Positions 49,898-58,902 of a DNA stretch of 64,000 nucleotides are shown here, piece after piece. Numbering within the stretch: position 1 is the stretch's first letter; each line of letters begins with the position of its first letter. Location: positions 2,604,001 through 2,668,000 of the forward strand of contig NZ_JACCFO010000001.1 in NCBI RefSeq assembly GCF_013410565.1, in the 5' to 3' direction. Source of the stretch: Streptomonospora nanhaiensis (lineage in GTDB: Bacteria > Actinomycetota > Actinomycetes > Streptosporangiales > Streptosporangiaceae). The notes under the pieces were generated by a model, which was given only the letters and a program-made list of their open reading frames with translations, did not search any database and was not told where the DNA came from. Both the position numbers and the translations under genes were made by a program.

Positions 49898-50821
49898 ATT
49901 CTCAGCCTCGATGAACTGCCGATCGTGCACCTGGTCCTCAACACCGACTGCAACGCCTGGGACCGCCCCAACGCCCCGGGATCGCCGGGGGTCTGCCGGT
50001 TCTGCTACCGCGAACGCAACCGCGTCTCCACCGACCCCGACACCGTGCGCCGCGTCATCGACCTGGTCCGGGCCGAGTCCGCCGCCCGGCGGATCGTGTT
50101 TACCGGCGGGGATCCGGTCATGCCCTACGACAACCACCTCGAAGTCGCCCTGGCCCACGCCGCCGGCCTCGGCTTCGAGACCAACCTGCACACCAACGGG
50201 CTGCTGCTCGCCGACCGGTACCCGGGCCTGCGCGACCACGTGACGCTGTACTCCCTGGCCGTGGACGGCCCCGACGCCGCCACGGCCGACTGGTTCCGCG
50301 GCAGCGGCTACTTCGACCGCTTCACGGCCAACGTCGACATGCTCGTCGCCGACGGACGGCGTCTGGCGTTCAACACCTTCACGACCGGCGAAAGCGTGCG
50401 GCGGCTGCCGGAACTCGCCGAGCTGATCCGCGGCGTCGCCGCCCGCACCGAGGTGGAGTACTGGCTCATCTCGCAGTACCGGCCGATCGGGCGCGCCAAC
50501 CCCCGCAAGGCCGAGATCTACGGCTACGAACCGGCGGCGTTCACGGCGGCCGTGGACGCCGTCCGCGACACGGTCCCCGGTGTCGCGGTGTTCGCCCAGC
50601 CCACCCGGGCCCACGACGACCCCTACCCGTTCCGCGCGTGGATCCTGGCCGACGGCACGGTCACCGCCGACCTCGGCAGTGTGGCCGCCCCGCGCAACGC
50701 CGTGCTGGGCAGCATGCTCTCCGAGGGGCTGGAGCCGCTGATCCGCCGCGCGTTCGCGCTGCGCGACGCCCCGGACGAGGCGGCCCCGCCCGACCCGGGC
50801 CGGGCGCCCGCGCCGAGCTGA
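49898..50821 (+). CDS. Radical SAM enzyme with CX14CX2C cluster motif
   Basis: About 307 residues. Strand-1 region VHLVLNTDCNAWDRPN is followed by GVCRFCYRERN; the three cysteines are spaced C-x14-C-x2-C, not the usual C-x3-C-x2-C. The SAM-binding GGE-like motif is FTGGDPVMP and the barrel continues with FETNLHTNGLLLAD. A C-x14-C-x2-C spacing is known from some QueE enzymes, but length and context do not fit QueE. No SPASM domain is seen. Start: the only ribosome site (GGGAGGAG, 6-7 nt) precedes an ATT at 49898; the first in-frame GTG (49925) would begin inside strand 1. Product unknown. Confidence 0.75.
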   Translation: MLSLDELPIVHLVLNTDCNAWDRPNAPGSPGVCRFCYRERNRVSTDPDTVRRVIDLVRAESAARRIVFTGGDPVMPYDNHLEVALAHAAGLGFETNLHTNGLLLADRYPGLRDHVTLYSLAVDGPDAATADWFRGSGYFDRFTANVDMLVADGRRLAFNTFTTGESVRRLPELAELIRGVAARTEVEYWLISQYRPIGRANPRKAEIYGYEPAAFTAAVDAVRDTVPGVAVFAQPTRAHDDPYPFRAWILADGTVTADLGSVAAPRNAVLGSMLSEGLEPLIRRAFALRDAPDEAAPPDPGRAPAPS

Positions 50822-50848: not shown

Positions 50849-51856
50849 CTAGAGCGCCGCGGCCGGCTCCCGCGGCGCCGCCGACGGGAACGCCTTGCGG
50901 TAGTCGCTGGGCGAGACCCCGACCTGCTTGAGGAAGTGGTGCCGCAGGTTGTTGGCGGTGCCCAGCCCGCTCAGCTCGGCGACCTTCTCCACCGACAGGC
51001 CGGTGGACTCCAGCAGGGTCTGCGCCCGGGCCAGCCGCTCGTTGAGGAGCCACTGGAGCGGCGTGGTGCCGGTGGTCTCCTGGAGCCGCCGGTAGAACGT
51101 GCGCGGGCTCATGGCCGCCCGCCGCGCGAGGTCCTCGACCGTGATCGGCCGGTCCAGGTTGGCCCGCGCCCAGTCCAGGACGGGGGTCAGGCCCTGGGTG
51201 TCGGCGGCGGGCACCGACAGGTCGATGAACTGCGCCTGGCCGCCGGGCCGGTGCGCGGGCACGACCATGCGGCGCGCGAGCTGGTTGGCGACGTGCGCGC
51301 CGAGGTCGCGGCGGACCAGGTGCAGGCACAGGTCGAGCCCGGCGGACATCCCGGCGCTGGTCAGGACGTTGCCGTCGTCGGTGTAGAGGACGGAGTCGTC
51401 CACCCGCACAGCCGGGTAGCGCGCGGCGAGCTGGGCGGTGTGCATCCAGTGCGCGGTGGCGCGGCGGCCGTCGAGCAGGCCGGCCTCGGCCAGCGCGAAG
51501 GCGCCGGTGCACAGCGACACCATCCGGGCGCCCGCGTCGTGGGCGGCGCGCAGCGCCTCGGTCAGCTCCGGCGGCACGGGCGCGTCGGCGTCGACGCAGA
51601 CGTCGGGCACCGAGGCCACGATGACCGTGTCGGCGCGGACGAGATCGGCCAACCCGTGGGTGGTCCGCAGGGAGAAGCCCGGACCCGCGCCCGAGGAGCG
51701 GTGGGCGGTACCGCACAGCCACAGCTCGTACCAGGGGTCGGCGAGGTCCGGTTGCGGCTTGCCGAACACGGTGGCGGGGATGCTCAGCTCGTAGAGGTCC
51801 CAGGAGGGGATGCCGATCTCCTCGGGCACGACCAGGGCGACGGTTCCAGGGGTCAC
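50849..51856 (-). CDS. GlxA-family (DJ-1/PfpI + AraC) transcriptional regulator
   Basis: 335 residues. N-terminal DJ-1/PfpI-like domain (about 1-190) with the elbow ARMVSLCTGAFALAEAGLLDGRRATAHW, and C-terminal AraC-type double helix-turn-helix (ITVEDLARRAAMSPRTFYRRLQETTGTTPLQWLLNERLARAQTLL; AELSGLGTANNLRHHFLKQVGVSPSDYRK). Such proteins usually activate metabolic or detoxification genes; the ligand is unknown. Divergent from the PPOX-like remnant, which may once have been its target. GTG start at 51856. Confidence 0.9.
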   Translation of the reverse strand: MTPGTVALVVPEEIGIPSWDLYELSIPATVFGKPQPDLADPWYELWLCGTAHRSSGAGPGFSLRTTHGLADLVRADTVIVASVPDVCVDADAPVPPELTEALRAAHDAGARMVSLCTGAFALAEAGLLDGRRATAHWMHTAQLAARYPAVRVDDSVLYTDDGNVLTSAGMSAGLDLCLHLVRRDLGAHVANQLARRMVVPAHRPGGQAQFIDLSVPAADTQGLTPVLDWARANLDRPITVEDLARRAAMSPRTFYRRLQETTGTTPLQWLLNERLARAQTLLESTGLSVEKVAELSGLGTANNLRHHFLKQVGVSPSDYRKAFPSAAPREPAAAL

Positions 51857-52256: not shown

Positions 52257-52300
52257 AGGACCACCCCGCCAGGCGGCTCGCCGCCGAACAGGGTGGTCCT
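52257..52300 (-). terminator. Branched intrinsic terminator behind ssrA (H2)
   Basis: Outer 10-bp stem (52257-52266 with 52291-52300) enclosing a GGCGGC/GCCGCC inner hairpin. On the minus strand the stem is followed by a TTTTGTG tract. Same architecture and partly the same sequence as H3. Confidence 0.75.
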
Positions 52301-52335
52301 CCCCGGGGGGCCGCGGGATCGCCCCCGAAAAGACG

Positions 52336-52383
52336 AAGGGACGACCCCGCGAGGCGGTACACCGCCGAGCAGGGTCGCCCCTT
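52336..52383 (-). terminator. Intrinsic terminator of ssrA (H3)
   Basis: Outer 12-bp stem with one G-U or mismatch position (52336-52347 with 52372-52383), inner GGCGGT/ACCGCC hairpin, and TTTT a few nt beyond on the minus strand. It begins 4 nt after the tmRNA 3' end. Confidence 0.8.
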
Positions 52384-52387
52384 CCAA

Positions 52388-52758
52388 GGTGGAGGTGGCG
52401 GGAATCGAACCCGCGTCCTTCGATGACGCATCAGGGCTTCTCCGAGCGCAGTTCGTGCTGCCGTTCTCCTCGGCTCCAGCGCTCCCACGAACAGGTCGCT
52501 GACGAGCCCAGCCACGAAAGTGTCCCGCTCAGGCCCCGTGGCCTGATCTGAGCGGTAAGTCCCCTGAACGATGCCGGACACCGGGTCGAGGACGTACCCG
52601 GGCCGACAGAGTCGCTATCGCTTAGGCAGCGAGAGCGAACTCAGTGCGCTTGGAATTGGCACTTGTTGGTTTGCGAAAGCAGGATTAACGAGGTTACCTT
52701 CGCGATCCTCGGCTCGCTTCCCCCAATACGGCGACCGAAGTCGAAACCGATCACCCCC
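52388..52758 (-). ncRNA. ssrA: tmRNA
   Basis: Mature ends form the tRNA-Ala-like domain: 5' GGGGGTG pairs with 3' CACCTCC (52391-52397), preceded by the T-arm GGTTCGATTCC. The 3' ACC is encoded and the final A must be added. The tag reading frame (52622-52660 on the minus strand) encodes ANSKRTEFALAA and ends in TAA; the LAA end is the usual ClpXP degron. With SmpB it rescues stalled ribosomes. I recall the same tag in Thermobifida-type actinomycetes. smpB lies 2.5 kb upstream on the same strand. Total about 371 nt. Confidence 0.97.
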
Positions 52759-52820
52759 TGTGCAGTTTTCAACGGGCCGCGGCCCGCGCGAGGAACCCCG
52801 AGGAGTCCCCGTGTGGTCCC

Positions 52821-52850
52821 ACGTTACCGGTACAACGCGGGGACAGCCAA
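52821..52850 (-). promoter_or_regulatory. Promoter of ssrA
   Basis: Minus strand TTGGCT (52845-52850), 18-nt spacer, TAACGT (52821-52826). Transcription would start ~55 nt before the mature 5' end, leaving a leader for RNase P to remove. Confidence 0.55.
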
Positions 52851-52958
52851 GCCGATTCCCGCCGCCGAGGCCCGATCGGGATCTTTCGGCCGCCGGTCGG
52901 GGCGGTCACGCTCCGCGCGCCCCGGCGGGCCACCGCGCGCCCCCCGGACACGAAGAAT

Positions 52959-53002
52959 CCCTCGCGGGCGCGGACGGGAACCATCGACGCTGCCCGCGAG
53001 GG
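52959..53002 (-). terminator. Hairpin terminator at the end of the ftsEX-smpB-PBP transcript
   Basis: Perfect 11-bp stem (52959-52969 with 52992-53002), 22-nt loop, and ATTCTTCGT directly after it on the minus strand. A second 7-bp hairpin at 53004-53025 is followed by TTTCTCTT on the plus strand. Confidence 0.55.
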
Positions 53003-53035
53003 CGGCCGGCAGGGTCGGGCCGGCCTTTCTCTTCG

Positions 53036-53160
53036 GCAGGGCCTCCCCCGAGACGAGGTCCTGCTTACTCAGACTGGTTCCGCAACCCCCTTTGCGGTTC
53101 CAGTCACCCGGAAAGACGCAGCCCGGACGCCCGAAGGTTGCCTCTCCGCCCGATTTTTTT
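53036..53160 (+). ncRNA. 6C-like small RNA candidate
   Basis: Two hairpins with C-rich loops in tandem. First: 9-bp stem 53036-53044 with 53056-53064, loop starting CCCCC. Second: 53072-53105, two 6-bp stems split by a symmetric TT/TT internal loop, loop CCCCCT. A linker and then seven Ts (53154-53160) follow. GC content is visibly lower than in flanking DNA. Paired stem-loops each bearing a run of cytosines are the definition of the actinobacterial 6C RNA; here the runs are five C, one short of the name. The 3' T-run is not preceded by a clear terminator stem. No covariance-model search was possible. Confidence 0.55.
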
Positions 53161-53211
53161 CGCGGGCGCCCCGACCGGCCGCGGGCGGCCGGGGGGAGGC
53201 GACGCGAACCC

Positions 53212-55245
53212 CTATTCCGGCAGGACCTCCGCGCCGGTCGCGGGGGCCGACGGCGTGCCCCCGGCCTGCTCCTGCCCGGCGGCGTCGCCCTGCGGCGCGG
53301 TGTCGGCGACGTCCGGCGCGCTCCCGCCGTCCTGGGCGAGGCTTTCGGCGTACCCGGCCGGCAGCGTCTGCAGGAAGGACCCGGCGGCGGTCACCGCGTA
53401 CTGCTCCCACAACTGGATGGAGGGGTCCACCTCGGCCACCACCGCGAACGCCAGCGGCCCCTGGTAGCCCACGAACCACTGCACCGCCGTGTTCTGGCCC
53501 CGTACCTTCTGCTGGGTGTTGGCGACCTGGCCGTGCACCGGCAGCGTGGTGCCCACGTTGGCGGCGGTGGCGCTCTGCTCCACCACCGCGCGCATCATGT
53601 CCTGGACCTGGCCCACCGCCTGCGGGTCGAGTTCGTGGGACTCCCCGCCCTGCACGTTGGCGGCGTCGTCGTCGGCCACCAGGCGCGGCGCGTGCCAGGT
53701 GCCGTCGGCCACGGCCCCGGCCACCATCGCCATCGACAGGGGGCTCACCCGGACCTGGTCGACGCCGGCCATGGCGGCGGCGGTCTCGGCCTGGTTCTGC
53801 GGCGGGGAGAAGTTGCCGTTGTAGGTGGGGACCGACAGCCGCCAGTCGCCGCCGATGCCGAACCGGCTCGCCGCCGACTCCAGGGCCTCGGCGCCCACCT
53901 GCTCGCCCATCCGCGCGAAGGCGGTGGTGCAGGCGTAGGTGAAGTTGGTGGTGAGGTCGGGCAGTCCCGACAGCCCGGTGTTGTTGGGCGTGCGGAAGGT
54001 GCGGTCGCCCACGCGGGTCTGGTTCTCGCAGGCCATGGTGTCGGCGGGCCGCATGCCGCTCTCCAGCGCGGCGGTGGCCGACACGATGCTGAACGCCTCG
54101 CCCGGGCGGTACTCGGCGGTGAGCGCGCCGGTGTCGTCGGTGCCGCCCTGGTTGCCCACCGCCGCCAGGATCTCGCCGGTGCGGGCGTCGAGCGCCACCA
54201 GGTAGCCCCGGCCGGGCAGGGCCGCCAGCGCGGACTCCCCCGCCTCCTGGGCGCGCAGGTCCAGGGTGGTGGTCAGCGACCCGCTCTCCATGCCCGGCCA
54301 CGAGTGCAGGGTTCCGGTCTCCTGGCCCTCGGCGTCGACGGTGACCACCGCCGTGGTGGCGGTGCCCGCCAGCCGCTGCTGGAAGACGTTCTGCAGGCCG
54401 GTCAGGCCCACGGTGTCGCCGGCCTGGTAGGTGCCCGCCACGCGGGAGGACACGTTGTGCTCGGCGGTTCCGGCCACCTGGCCGATGACCGCCTCGGCGG
54501 CGCGGGGGTTGAGCCGCATCTCCAGCTTCTCGGTCCGCACGCCCGGGATCTCCTTGGCGCGCCGCTCGACGTCGGCCCGGACGTCGCCCTGGCGCATCAG
54601 CACCAGCGGCTGGAACTCCTGCGGCGGGGCCGAGCGCACCCGGTCCAGCAGCGGGTCGGAGTCCTCGCCCAGCAGTTCGGCGAGGTCGGCCACACCGCGC
54701 TCCATGTCGCGCATCTCGGCGGGGACCACGCCGAAGGCGGTGACCGCGTCGGTGCCCACCAGCGGCTCGTCGTTGCGGTCGAGGATCTGGCCGCGGTCGG
54801 GGACGTCGTAGCTGACGGCGATGCGCTCGTTTGCGCCCAGTTCGGGGTGGATGACCGACGGCGACCAGTCGATGGCCCAGCCCTGCGCTCCGCGCTGCAG
54901 GTTCATGGAGCCGTCGAAGTTCCACACCGGGTCGCCGATACCGAGGTCGGCCTGCCCCTCGAACGCGGCGGTGGCGGTGTCGCCGTCCTGCTGGATCTTG
55001 CCCAGCGAGAACCGCAGTCCGGCGAGGTCGAGCTGGCGGTGGGTGTCCTCCAGCGCCTCGGCGACCTCGTCGGGGTCCCCGTTGGTCTGCTGGGCGGCGG
55101 CGGCGTACTCACCGGCCTGCCAGTTCAGCAGGAACGTGCGGACCGCGACCTCGGGGCTGGGCTGGGTGGTGCAGCCGGTGACGACGGCCGCGGTGGCCAG
55201 CCCGGTGCCCGCTGCGAGGAGTCGGCGGAGGTGACGGGGGGACAC
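53212..55245 (-). CDS. Lipoprotein penicillin-binding-protein homologue, catalytically degenerate
   Basis: 677 residues. Signal peptide with lipobox VVTGC (Cys25), an NTF2-like MecA-type N-domain (about 28-130), a dimerisation domain starting VPDRGQILDRNDEPL, and a transpeptidase fold (345-640). All three active-site motifs are lost: S-x-x-K is EAFS (Glu383, Ser386), S-x-N is ACT (438-440), and K-T-G is QVA (573-575), while surrounding family sequence (YRPGEAFSIVSATAALESG; TTAFARMGEQVG; AVQWFVGYQGPLAFAV) is preserved. It should not bind beta-lactams or cross-link peptidoglycan. Follows smpB by 23 nt and so is probably in the ftsEX-smpB transcript. A scaffold or regulator role is inference. 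Confidence 0.88.
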   Translation of the reverse strand: MSPRHLRRLLAAGTGLATAAVVTGCTTQPSPEVAVRTFLLNWQAGEYAAAAQQTNGDPDEVAEALEDTHRQLDLAGLRFSLGKIQQDGDTATAAFEGQADLGIGDPVWNFDGSMNLQRGAQGWAIDWSPSVIHPELGANERIAVSYDVPDRGQILDRNDEPLVGTDAVTAFGVVPAEMRDMERGVADLAELLGEDSDPLLDRVRSAPPQEFQPLVLMRQGDVRADVERRAKEIPGVRTEKLEMRLNPRAAEAVIGQVAGTAEHNVSSRVAGTYQAGDTVGLTGLQNVFQQRLAGTATTAVVTVDAEGQETGTLHSWPGMESGSLTTTLDLRAQEAGESALAALPGRGYLVALDARTGEILAAVGNQGGTDDTGALTAEYRPGEAFSIVSATAALESGMRPADTMACENQTRVGDRTFRTPNNTGLSGLPDLTTNFTYACTTAFARMGEQVGAEALESAASRFGIGGDWRLSVPTYNGNFSPPQNQAETAAAMAGVDQVRVSPLSMAMVAGAVADGTWHAPRLVADDDAANVQGGESHELDPQAVGQVQDMMRAVVEQSATAANVGTTLPVHGQVANTQQKVRGQNTAVQWFVGYQGPLAFAVVAEVDPSIQLWEQYAVTAAGSFLQTLPAGYAESLAQDGGSAPDVADTAPQGDAAGQEQAGGTPSAPATGAEVLPE

Positions 55246-55268: not shown

Positions 55269-55733
55269 TCAGCGGCGGCGCCGGAGCGCGCGCTCGATGT
55301 CGCGTTTGGCCTCGCGCTCGGCGATGTCTTGGCGTTTGTCGTAGGTGCGCTTACCGCGGGCCAGCGCGATCTCGACCTTGGCCCGGCCCTCGCTGAAGTA
55401 CAGCGAGAGCGGGACCAGCGTGCGGCCGGGCTCCTGGGTCTTGCCGATGAGCCGGGAGATCTCCTCGCGGTGCAGCAGCAGTTTACGCGGTCGGCGCGCG
55501 GCGTGGTTCGTCCACGTCCCGTGGGCGTACTCGGGGATGTGGACGTTCTCCAGCCACACCTCGCCGTCCTTGACCTGGGCGAACCCGTCGACAAGGGAGG
55601 CGCGCCCGGCCCGCAGCGACTTGACCTCGGTGCCGGTCAGGACGATGCCCGCCTCGTAGGTGTCGTCGATGTGGTAGTCGTGCCGGGCCCGCCGGTTCTG
55701 CGCGATGAGCTTGCGCCCCTTTTCCCGTGCCAC
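55269..55733 (-). CDS. smpB: SmpB, tmRNA-binding protein
   Basis: 154 residues, normal length. [47 protein letters not shown] at the N-terminus, the tmRNA-binding barrel, then [31 protein letters not shown], the basic tail that enters the mRNA channel. It delivers tmRNA to stalled ribosomes. GTG start. 55 nt downstream of ftsX; ssrA follows 2.5 kb further on. Confidence 0.97.
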
Positions 55734-55788: not shown

Positions 55789-56697
55789 TCAGACCCGCAG
55801 GTAGCGCCGCAGCGTCAGGAACGACGCGACGGTGCACAGCAGCACACCGAGGATCAGCGAGACGCCGATCACCGACAGCAGGGAGCCGGTCGAGAGGGTG
55901 ACGTCGAACTGGAACCACTCCTGGATCCGGCTCAGCAGCAGGAACCGCGCCGCCACGATGAACCCGGAGGCGATGATGCCGCCGATGAGGCCGGCGATCG
56001 CGCCTTCGAGGAGGAACGGCAGCTGGATGTAGAAGTTGGACGCACCGACCAGGCGCATGATGCCGGTCTCCTTGCGGCGGCTGTAGGCCGCGAGGCGGAC
56101 GGTGTTGCCGATGAGCAGGGCCGCGGCGGCCAGCTGCACGAACGCGACGGTGAGCGCGGCGGCGGTCAGGCCGTCGAGAAGGCCGAAGAACTGCTCCAGG
56201 ACGGCCTGGTCGTCGTAGATCGAGTCGATGCCGGGGCTGCCCTCGATGTTGCTCGACACGGCCTCGTACTGGCTCGGGTCGACCAGCTGGACCCGGAAGT
56301 TGTCGGGGATGTCACCCTCGCGGACGGCCTCGACCATCGCCTCGTTGTTGGCGAAGCGCTCCTGGAAGTCCTTGAAGGCGTCCTCGGCGCTGATGTACTC
56401 GACGCTGCTGACCTCGTCCATGCTTTCCAAAGCGTTCTGGACGTCCTGGCGCTGCTGGTCGGTGGCCGCACCGTTCTCCTGGCACGCGTTGGACGTGGAG
56501 ATGTCCGTGCACATGTAGACGGTGAGGGTCACGCGCTCGTCCCAGTACTGGCGCATCTGCGTCACCTGCTGGTTGATCAGCAGACCGCCGCCGAACAGGG
56601 CGAGCGAGATGGCCACCGTGACGATGACCGCGACGGTCATCGTCAGGTTGCGACGCAGACCGATCCAGATCTCGGAAAGAACGAATTGAGCTCGCAT
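55789..56697 (-). CDS. ftsX: FtsX, cell-division ABC-type permease subunit
   Basis: 302 residues, four helices: one near the N-terminus ([22 protein letters not shown]), a large extracytoplasmic domain of ~145 residues (includes a Cys pair, MCTDIS...ACQENG), then three C-terminal helices. With FtsE it transmits ATPase cycles across the membrane to activate peptidoglycan hydrolases (RipC in mycobacteria). ATG at 56697 ([20 protein letters not shown]) is preferred; a 14-residue longer frame has no family support. 75 nt downstream of ftsE. Confidence 0.95.
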
Positions 56698-56772
56698 GAG
56701 AGTTAAGGGTCCATCCTCGTGGGCTTCGCCGCGCTGCACTGACCAACGCAGGAGCGCTGGCAGGCCCGTGCG

Positions 56773-57462
56773 TCAGTACGCCTGGCCGTAGACGCCGCGG
56801 GACTGGTCCCGCACGACCTCGCCCTCTTCGAGCTCGATCACGCGCTTGCGCATCGAGTCGACGATGGCGGCGTCGTGAGTCGCCATGACAACGGTCGTCC
56901 CGGTCCGGTTGATTCGGTCCAGCACCTTCATGATGCCGATCGATGTGGCGGGGTCGATGTTTCCGGTCGGCTCGTCGGCCAGCAGGATCTGCGGCCGGTT
57001 CACGAACGCGCGCGCGATGGCGACCCGCTGCTGCTCACCACCCGACAGCTCGTCGGGCATGCGGTCGGCCTTGCCTTCGAGGCCGACGAGTTCGACGACC
57101 TCCGGGACGACCTTGCGGATGAACCGCCGGGGCTTGCCGATGACCTCCAGGGCGAACGCGACGTTCTCGAAGACGTTCTTGTTCGGCAGCAGCCGGAAGT
57201 CCTGGAAGACGCAGCCGATACGCCGCCGCAGGTGCGGCACCTTCCAGTTGGACAGGCGCGCGAGGTCCTTGCCGGCGACGTGCACGCGGCCCTTCGTCGG
57301 CTTCTCCTCCTTGAGGACAAGCCGCAGGAAGGTCGACTTGCCCGACCCCGAGGGGCCGACGAGGAAGACGAACTCCCCCTTGTCGACGTCGATCGTAACG
57401 TCCTCCAACGCAGGGCGCTTCTGGGTCGGATAGACCTTGGTGACGTTCTCAAAGTGGATCAC
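56773..57462 (-). CDS. ftsE: FtsE, cell-division ABC-type ATPase
   Basis: 229 residues. Walker [11 protein letters not shown]-loop [17 protein letters not shown], signature LSGGEQQR, Walker [14 protein letters not shown]-loop ATHDAAIVD. The [18 protein letters not shown] text is characteristic of FtsE. First gene of the ftsE-ftsX-smpB-PBP run. Confidence 0.97.
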
Positions 57463-57786: not shown

Positions 57787-58902
57787 CTACTTCTCGGCCG
57801 CCTCCTGGCTGCGCATCCAGCGGATCTCGGCGTCGATGAAGGTGTCGATCTCGCCGTCCAGGATCGCGCCGGGGTTGCCGCTCTCGACACCGGTGCGGAC
57901 GTCCTTGACGCTCTGGTAGGGGTGCAGCACGTAGTTGCGCATCTGGGTGCCCCAGCTGCTGACGCTCTCGCCGCGGAGTTCGTCGAGTTCGGCGCGCTCC
58001 TCGCGGCGCTTGCGCTCCAGCAGCTTGGCCTGGAGCATCGACATGGCCGTGGCGCGGTTCTGGATCTGGGAGCGCTCGTTCTGGCAGGAGGTCACGATCC
58101 CGGTGGGCAGGTGGGTGATGCGCACCGCGGAGTCGGTGGTGTTGACGCCCTGGCCGCCGGGGCCGCTGGAGCGGTAGACGTCGATGCGGAGTTCGCTCTC
58201 GTCGATGTCGATGTGGTCGCTCTGCTCCACGACGGGCACGACGTCGACGCCCGCGAACGAGGTCTGCCGGCGGTTCTGGTTGTCGAACGGCGAGATGCGC
58301 ACCAGGCGGTGGGTGCCGTGCTCGCCGCGCAGCGTGCCGTAGGCGAAGGGCGCCTTGACGACGAAGCTGGTGGACTTGATGCCGGCTTCCTCGGCGTAGG
58401 AGGTCTCGTAGACCTCGGTGGGGTAGCCGTGGCGCTCGGCCCAGCGCAGGTACATGCGCTGGAGCATCTGCGCCCAGTCGGCGGCGTCGACCCCGCCGGC
58501 CTGGGAGTTGATGGTGACCAGCGCCTCGCGCTCGTCGTAGGGGCCGTTGAGCAGGGTGCGGACCTCCAGCTCGCCGATGTCGCCGCGCAGGGAGTCCAGC
58601 TCGGAGTCGGCCTCGGCCAGGGTGTCGGCGTCGTCCTCGGAGGCGGCGAGTTCGTAGAGCACGCTGAGGTCGTCCAGGCGACGCCGGATGTTGCCGACCT
58701 TGCTCACCGTGGATTCGAGGTTGGCGAGCCTGCGGGTGACCTTCTGCGCCTCACCGGGATCGTTCCACAGCTCGGGGTCGGCGGACTGCTCGCGCAGCTC
58801 CTCGATCTCGCGCTGCTTGGCGTCGAGGTCGAGCACGGCCTCGACGCTCGCCAGGGTCGACGAGAGTTCCTTGATCTTTTCCGCGGGGTCTAGGTCTGCC
58901 AC
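57787..58902 (-). CDS. prfB: Peptide chain release factor 2
   Basis: 371 residues. The stop-codon-reading motif SPF is present ([15 protein letters not shown]) and the catalytic GGQ is in [12 protein letters not shown]. It releases peptides at UGA and UAA. The frame is continuous from ATG with no internal TGA, so the programmed frameshift found in many bacteria is absent, as expected in actinobacteria. Lies between gdh and ftsE on the same strand. Confidence 0.97.

Follow-up and report, generated by a model that had tools for sequence, protein, structure and literature searches.

The locus and its catalytic motifs

Penicillin-binding proteins (PBPs) are known for acyl-serine chemistry, and three motifs, S-x-x-K, S-x-N and K-T-G, define the transpeptidases as enzymes. 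Here we describe a gene of Streptomonospora nanhaiensis that encodes a MecA-type class B PBP in which all three are replaced. It lies in a 64,000-nucleotide stretch (the window; assembly GCF_013410565.1, contig NZ_JACCFO010000001.1, positions 2,604,001 to 2,668,000), downstream of ftsE, ftsX and smpB and followed by ssrA, the gene of the transfer-messenger RNA (tmRNA). We refer to it as the pseudo-PBP gene. The four genes from ftsE to the pseudo-PBP gene share one strand with gaps of 33, 55 and 23 nucleotides, and an AAGGA-like ribosome-binding sequence precedes the last of them; co-transcription is suggested by this spacing.

The protein starts with a signal-like sequence that leads into a lipobox, VTG-C25, and by the lipobox rule it is predicted to be lipid-anchored and extracytoplasmic. 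The domains MecA_N, PBP_dimer and Transpeptidase follow in that order, each above its Pfam cut-off (Table 1). The original prediction, made from the letters of the window, had read EAFS, ACT and QVA in place of the three motifs of a MecA-type lipoprotein PBP; alignment to relatives bears this out, with the flanking fold residues (G382, F385, C439, T441 and W590) in place. Intact motifs were looked for elsewhere, and the transpeptidase domain holds no displaced S-x-x-K, S-x-N or K-T-G. The only other S-x-x-K (SLGK, residues 80-83) and the only other S-x-N (SMN, residues 113-115) both lie within MecA_N, and K-T-G occurs nowhere in the whole protein.

Table 1 Features of the pseudo-PBP locus, in window positions. 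Alignment A1 has 36 rows (of 50 loci) and alignment A2 has 55 rows.
Feature	Positions	Strand	Remarks
MecA-type pseudo-transpeptidase lipoprotein gene	53212..55245	-	677 codons, GTG start, TAG stop
Lipobox cysteine (VTGC), codon 25	55171..55173	-	Invariant in A1, at least 90% in A2
MecA_N (NTF2-like) domain, residues 31-139	54829..55155	-	Pfam PF05223, 45.6 bits
PBP_dimer (pedestal) domain, residues 148-312	54310..54804	-	Pfam PF03717, 73.2 bits
Transpeptidase-fold domain without catalytic motifs, residues 347-595	53461..54207	-	Pfam PF00905, 98.9 bits
EAFS replacing S-x-x-K, codons 383-386	54088..54099	-	Alignment to relatives
Cysteine, codon 406	54028..54030	-	Invariant in 36/36 motif-intact and 74/74 pseudo representatives
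ACT replacing S-x-N, codons 438-440	53926..53934	-	Alignment; middle Cys (C439) invariant
QVA replacing K-T-G, codons 573-575	53521..53529	-	Alignment to relatives
smpB, directly upstream	55269..55733	-	Pfam PF01668
ftsX	55789..56739	-	Pfam FtsX_ECD and FtsX
ftsE	56773..57462	-	Pfam ABC_tran; named from its place beside ftsX
prfB, release factor 2 (RF2)	57787..58902	-	Pfam PCRF and RF-1; RF2 named from gene order
ssrA (tmRNA), next gene downstream	52387..52758	-	Rfam RF00023, 159.8 bits; ARAGORN tag ANSKRTEFALAA

The loss was surveyed in 150 genomes of the window's GTDB family, all of which gave matches in a protein search. The survey comprises 151 family stretches (145 of the 150 genomes and five from a wider search, one genome being in two pieces), and three further stretches (L079, L376 and L377) bring the genomes readable at S-x-x-K to 148 of 150. 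A second set, the best 80 loci of a contig scan (the named loci), overlaps the family sample in part and is thus not independent of it. It spans Streptomonospora, Nocardiopsis, Thermobifida, Actinomadura, Actinoallomurus, Microbispora, Planotetraspora, Nonomuraea, Sphaerisporangium and other genera, whose family placement we assume except for Actinomadura and Actinoallomurus. NCBI taxonomy puts these two in Thermomonosporaceae, and divides Streptosporangiales into Streptosporangiaceae, Thermomonosporaceae, Nocardiopsidaceae and Treboniaceae; the last of these did not turn up in the named set.

None of 150 readable family stretches has an intact S-x-x-K. The lysine of this motif is replaced by S (82), T (47), G (20) or A (1), its serine is still Ser in 12, and 12 residue types occur at this former nucleophile position across the family. 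The lysine of K-T-G is likewise absent from all 149 readable stretches (Q in 64, V in 61, I in 21 and L in 3). S-x-N is intact in a single stretch, and its middle cysteine is kept in 150/150. The three further stretches carry TAFS/GCV/VAA, TTFS/GCV/VVS and TVFT/GCG/QVS, respectively, and among the named loci S-x-x-K is found in 0/80, the lysine of K-T-G in 0/78 and an intact S-x-N in 6/80. As to fixation across a genus, which the original prediction had left to be checked, the loss is fixed well beyond the genus, but the replacement residues vary and S-x-N or the serine is sometimes kept; "all three motifs replaced" is strictly true of most family members and not of each one.

The pseudo-PBP gene was found in 149 of the 150 family genomes. 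The remaining one (G105) is a 460-contig assembly in which no smpB was found. G056, considered as a genome without the gene, was set aside, as its contig ends inside the gene directly after smpB.

For comparison, 40 stretches from 37 of 265 genomes of the class outside the family were picked from the best-match list; some of these relatives have no match over the MecA_N part. With this choice of sample, a pseudo form may also exist elsewhere in the class. All three motifs are kept in 38 of the 40, against no family stretch with S-x-x-K among 150, and the fixed motif loss is far beyond chance. The other two outside relatives (L097 and L100) read TAFK/SCN/TTG. Each is the second MecA-type relative of a genome that belongs to another family of the class, and this partial loss may be an independent step towards a pseudo-enzyme.

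Maintenance, constraint and predicted fold

A gene that had lost its catalytic residues could be a slowly decaying relic, retained through its linkage to smpB and ssrA. Open frames speak against this. By a full-length criterion of at least 560 of 641 model columns, 148 of the 151 family stretches carry a full-length frame, the other three being contig-end fragments, and so do 76 of the 80 named loci; of the other four, three stop at contig ends and the fourth (L182) has a split frame. Ratios of non-synonymous to synonymous divergence (omega, Nei-Gojobori) were below 1 in both parts of the protein in 20/20 chosen pairs, as expected of purifying selection, at 0.07-0.52 in the N-terminal part and 0.13-0.74 in the transpeptidase part, with synonymous divergence (dS) crudely estimated at a third-position GC content (GC3) above 0.9. 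The raised transpeptidase omega of several pairs and the split copy in L182 are what a relic would lead one to expect. With the gene present in 149/150 genomes and its MecA_N domain better conserved than that of a paralogue (below), we consider a relic the least probable of the explanations weighed here. The gene is maintained and not decaying, as originally proposed.

The distribution of constraint differs from that of the motif-intact MecA-type paralogue in the same genomes. With the borders of MecA_N, pedestal and transpeptidase domains placed by hand, mean identity over 28 genomes (378 pairs) was 0.556 for MecA_N and 0.438 for the transpeptidase domain of the pseudo-PBP, versus 0.433 and 0.577 for the paralogue. 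Transpeptidase identity was below MecA_N identity in 375/378 pairs for the pseudo-PBP versus 2/378 for the paralogue, and MecA_N was better conserved in the pseudo-PBP than in the paralogue in 366/378 pairs. The conservation profile is thus inverted relative to the paralogue: the NTF2-like domain is conserved and the transpeptidase domain relaxed.

Per-column comparison of 74 pseudo and 36 motif-intact representatives locates the loss of conservation at the catalytic residues, while the fold residues G382, F385, C406, C439, G463, G494, S501-P502 and W590 stay conserved. C406 is a possible disulphide partner of C439. A new enzymatic activity that uses other residues in the old cleft would fit the retention of the fold and of many residues around the cleft, with C439 invariant. 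We nevertheless regard it as improbable: the former nucleophile position accepts 12 residue types, the transpeptidase domain is the less constrained part, and C439 and the other fold residues give no pointer to a new function because they, and C406, are equally conserved in motif-intact relatives.

That the fold-defining sequence is kept had also been proposed, and structure prediction agrees. AlphaFold2 (55 sequences) returned a model with a predicted local distance difference test score (pLDDT) of 88.1 and a predicted template modelling score (pTM) of 0.83. Its best Foldseek matches by E-value were Staphylococcus aureus PBP2a (5m18), Bacillus subtilis PBP3 (7bn9) and Enterococcus faecium PBP5 (6mka), at E of about 1e-37, and a second structural aligner gave Z of 35.4-39.4 for the 50 PBP-type entries listed, mostly over residues 139-638. 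A PBP2a-like fold is therefore predicted to be intact. The window protein shares the MecA_N, pedestal and transpeptidase architecture of these three proteins; unlike them it has lost all three motifs, and its score against the NCBIfam model MECA_PBP2A is far below the cut-off (56.1 versus 750 bits). Its architecture and predicted fold place it among the MecA-type proteins, but it lacks the three motifs that define the enzyme.

Neighbourhood, origin and paralogues

The gene order is conserved. Of the 151 family stretches, 149 have smpB directly upstream on the same strand, with the stop-to-stop frame of the pseudo-PBP gene overlapping the end of smpB in 21 of these; contig ends cut the remaining two. 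In 135/151 a tmRNA gene of the same orientation follows within 1.5 kb (8 cut, 8 not found). Among the named loci smpB is present in 79/80 (1 cut) and the tmRNA gene lies within 1.5 kb in 74/80, with four cut, one in which none was found, and Allonocardiopsis opalescens (L180), where it lies 4.3 kb downstream rather than adjoining. All 12 named loci that were laid out carry ftsE, ftsX, smpB and the pseudo-PBP gene in this order on one strand, so the proposed linkage to ftsE-ftsX is real and conserved. prfB lies upstream of ftsE in all 12, on the opposite strand in L184. The original prediction placed the gene between smpB and a 6C-like RNA; smpB does adjoin it, but the RNA is the tmRNA (ssrA, RF00023), and at 52300-53260 the 6C family has no match with the E limit raised to 1. 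Between the pseudo-PBP gene and the tmRNA only sub-threshold RNA matches occur, and the tmRNA alone is above its gathering score.

Several further observations concern the neighbourhood. In L184 ftsX and smpB are separated by a gene for an S41 peptidase (C-terminal processing type), and a comparable gap occurs there in L179 and L198; S41 peptidase genes (L184:4255-5457 and L375:4385-5551) occur beside pseudo and motif-intact PBP genes alike. The tmRNA tag peptides of L047-L049, L052, L053, L057 and L058 are longer (for example ANKKSTEVSQASLALAA) than the ANSKRTEFALAA of the window's relatives. A record labelled Glycomyces fuscus (L167) contains a Nocardiopsis-like locus with the same gene order, about 50% identical to the window gene, and may be mislabelled. 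Beyond ssrA in the window, a putative protein gene at 49925-50821 (+) has, by eye, a cysteine cluster of radical-SAM-like look, and beside it lies a putative AraC/DJ-1-type regulator-like gene (50849-51856, -, also by eye). A phage origin of the pseudo-PBP was considered and rejected, with no PHROGs match at E 0.001. In a plasmid collection 107 records matched, all below 60% identity, the best being an 11.85-Mb Nonomuraea record filed as a plasmid.

Motif-intact relatives indicate the direction of change. The neighbourhood is readable in 37 of the 40 outside stretches, with the PBP gene by smpB in three and elsewhere in 34. One of the three, L092/L375, reads ftsE-ftsX-S41 peptidase-smpB-PBP-ssrA, and another, L093, reads ftsE-ftsX-smpB-PBP; these two share with the window protein a place behind ftsE-ftsX-smpB, followed in L375 by ssrA, and unlike it they keep STFK, SCN and KTG. 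In L111, smpB and the motif-intact PBP have the tmRNA between them. A 79-row tree was built without the motif columns (quick search; Shimodaira-Hasegawa-like approximate likelihood ratio test (SH-aLRT) support without bootstrap; rooted on two long rows flagged by the program). It unites the 36 pseudo rows in a single clade (SH-aLRT 100), opposite the 40 outside relatives (90), with the own-genome paralogue of MecA type outside both (82). Because two of the 38 motif-intact relatives occupy the same ftsE-ftsX-smpB neighbourhood, catalysis was most likely lost a single time from an active enzyme at the smpB-linked locus, in the stem lineage of the sampled Streptosporangiales and before the sampled families diverged.

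The window genome (G000) has ten PF00905 matches, and the suggested check for an active paralogue turned up motif-intact ones. Besides the pseudo-PBP gene (L008) there are three motif-intact proteins of class B type (L001, L002 and L003), a MecA-type paralogue with SIFK, SCN and KSG (L004), three matches with transglycosylase domains (L005, L006 and L007) and one more match with intact motifs (L010). The tenth (L009, G000:C1, about 4.09 Mb) is a lipoprotein with STFK and WKSGW that resembles a class D beta-lactamase. Because motif-intact PBPs occur elsewhere in the genome, the cell probably does not depend on the pseudo-PBP for transpeptidation. All 30 retrieved copies of the MecA-type paralogue, of 45 genomes with a match, keep SxxK, SCN and K[TS]G.

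A paralogue of this kind invites the explanation that the pseudo-PBP is a pseudo-subunit, a dead MecA-type protein that pairs with the live one and allosterically controls or positions it. An own-genome paralogue was matched away from the pseudo-PBP gene in 45 of 46 searched family genomes, the window genome included, both proteins have MecA_N, and the title of entry 5dvy points to a crystallised dimer of the related E. faecium protein. Against this, the paralogue's PBP_dimer match covers a short stretch only, and the two genes are unlinked in the window genome (about 0.35 Mb versus 2.66 Mb). MecA_N was present in 101/101 genomes searched, and in G024 and G078 the single MecA_N domain is that of the pseudo-PBP gene (in G024 it is also the best match to the paralogue itself), so the motif-intact paralogue is not an obligatory partner. 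We find this pairing doubtful, if less so than a new activity.

A proposed non-catalytic role linked to FtsEX

The reading that we favour, with a probability of roughly 0.55, is that the gene encodes an ancient, maintained pseudo-transpeptidase acting as an FtsEX-linked, non-catalytic peptidoglycan-binding or scaffold lipoprotein. As S-x-x-K and K-T-G are lost, and S-x-N mostly, the pseudo-PBP would have no catalytic activity. In outline, a MecA-type class B PBP downstream of ftsE-ftsX-smpB has lost these motifs and been kept since as a lipoprotein, which would be anchored by its lipid on the outer face of the membrane. There the unreactive transpeptidase-fold domain and the rim of its cleft could, without acylation, hold on to nascent peptidoglycan or sense it. 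The NTF2-like and pedestal domains could bind a partner protein of the division or wall-remodelling machinery linked to FtsEX and regulate it. The most strongly constrained functional face would thereby have shifted from the catalytic to the N-terminal domain. A structural or sensing role in division, as first suggested for this protein, would be in keeping with this outline.

Precedents exist for parts of this scheme. Class B PBP2B of B. subtilis with the substitution S309A supports division structurally without catalysis, and PBP3 supplies the activity (PMC5656894). That protein is a laboratory point mutant of an active enzyme, whereas the pseudo-PBP lost its motifs in nature, and this loss is fixed across the sampled order. 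The catalytic activity of Clostridioides difficile SpoVD is only partly needed for asymmetric division (PMC12713402). A report on Streptomyces (PMC6273383) lists 13 class A PBPs that lack SxxK residues and mostly keep the other motifs, and its author holds that they can function as PBPs; these too are actinobacterial proteins with partial loss of the active site, but of a different class from the pseudo-PBP. Recruitment of stem peptides is reported in the literature, and so a dead relative could still bind the wall. A search of open-access literature, with most subscription journals outside its reach, turned up no account of a class B pseudo-PBP shared by a whole order.

The pseudo-PBP might alternatively be a non-covalent sink or sensor for beta-lactams. 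PBP2a, among its closest folds, has low affinity for these drugs, which counts in favour. The other two, E. faecium PBP5 (PMC12717099) and B. subtilis PBP3 (PMC5656894), are likewise described as having low beta-lactam affinity. Acyl-serine chemistry as known requires S-x-x-K, and we would accordingly expect no beta-lactam acylation of the pseudo-PBP. Directly adjoining it are smpB and ssrA, with no gene for a sensor partner or regulator, and we give this explanation very little credence.

Several points weigh against an FtsEX-linked scaffold. We infer its peptidoglycan binding, localisation and partner, and the link to FtsEX rests on gene order, in which smpB and ssrA are equally close to the pseudo-PBP gene and have no evident tie to wall synthesis. 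In L182 (Nocardiopsis sp. CNR-923) the gene is split over two overlapping frames, by mutation or assembly error. Omega of the transpeptidase part reaches 0.74 in distant pairs, on an estimate that the GC3 makes crude, and part of this domain may be only loosely constrained. Pedestal identity is lower in the pseudo-PBP than in the paralogue (0.443 versus 0.497; the domains differ in length), and the cysteine of S-x-N, like other fold residues, is, as noted, no better conserved than in motif-intact relatives.

For annotation, the consequence is that a label as transpeptidase or resistance PBP is probably wrong for this protein. The sampled order consists mostly of filamentous actinobacteria. We tentatively raise the possibility that the class B pseudo-PBP is a dedicated and probably essential regulatory FtsEX-linked subunit throughout it, in which the dead domain would read the state of nascent peptidoglycan and the NTF2-like domain, where constraint is now highest, would relay it to hydrolases or a live transpeptidase. 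The pseudo-PBP would be a natural case in which the structural work of a class B PBP is divorced from catalysis, a question earlier approached with engineered serine mutants. A single cell also offers a natural matched pair, a motif-less and a motif-intact MecA-type protein, with the constraint on their two halves reversed.

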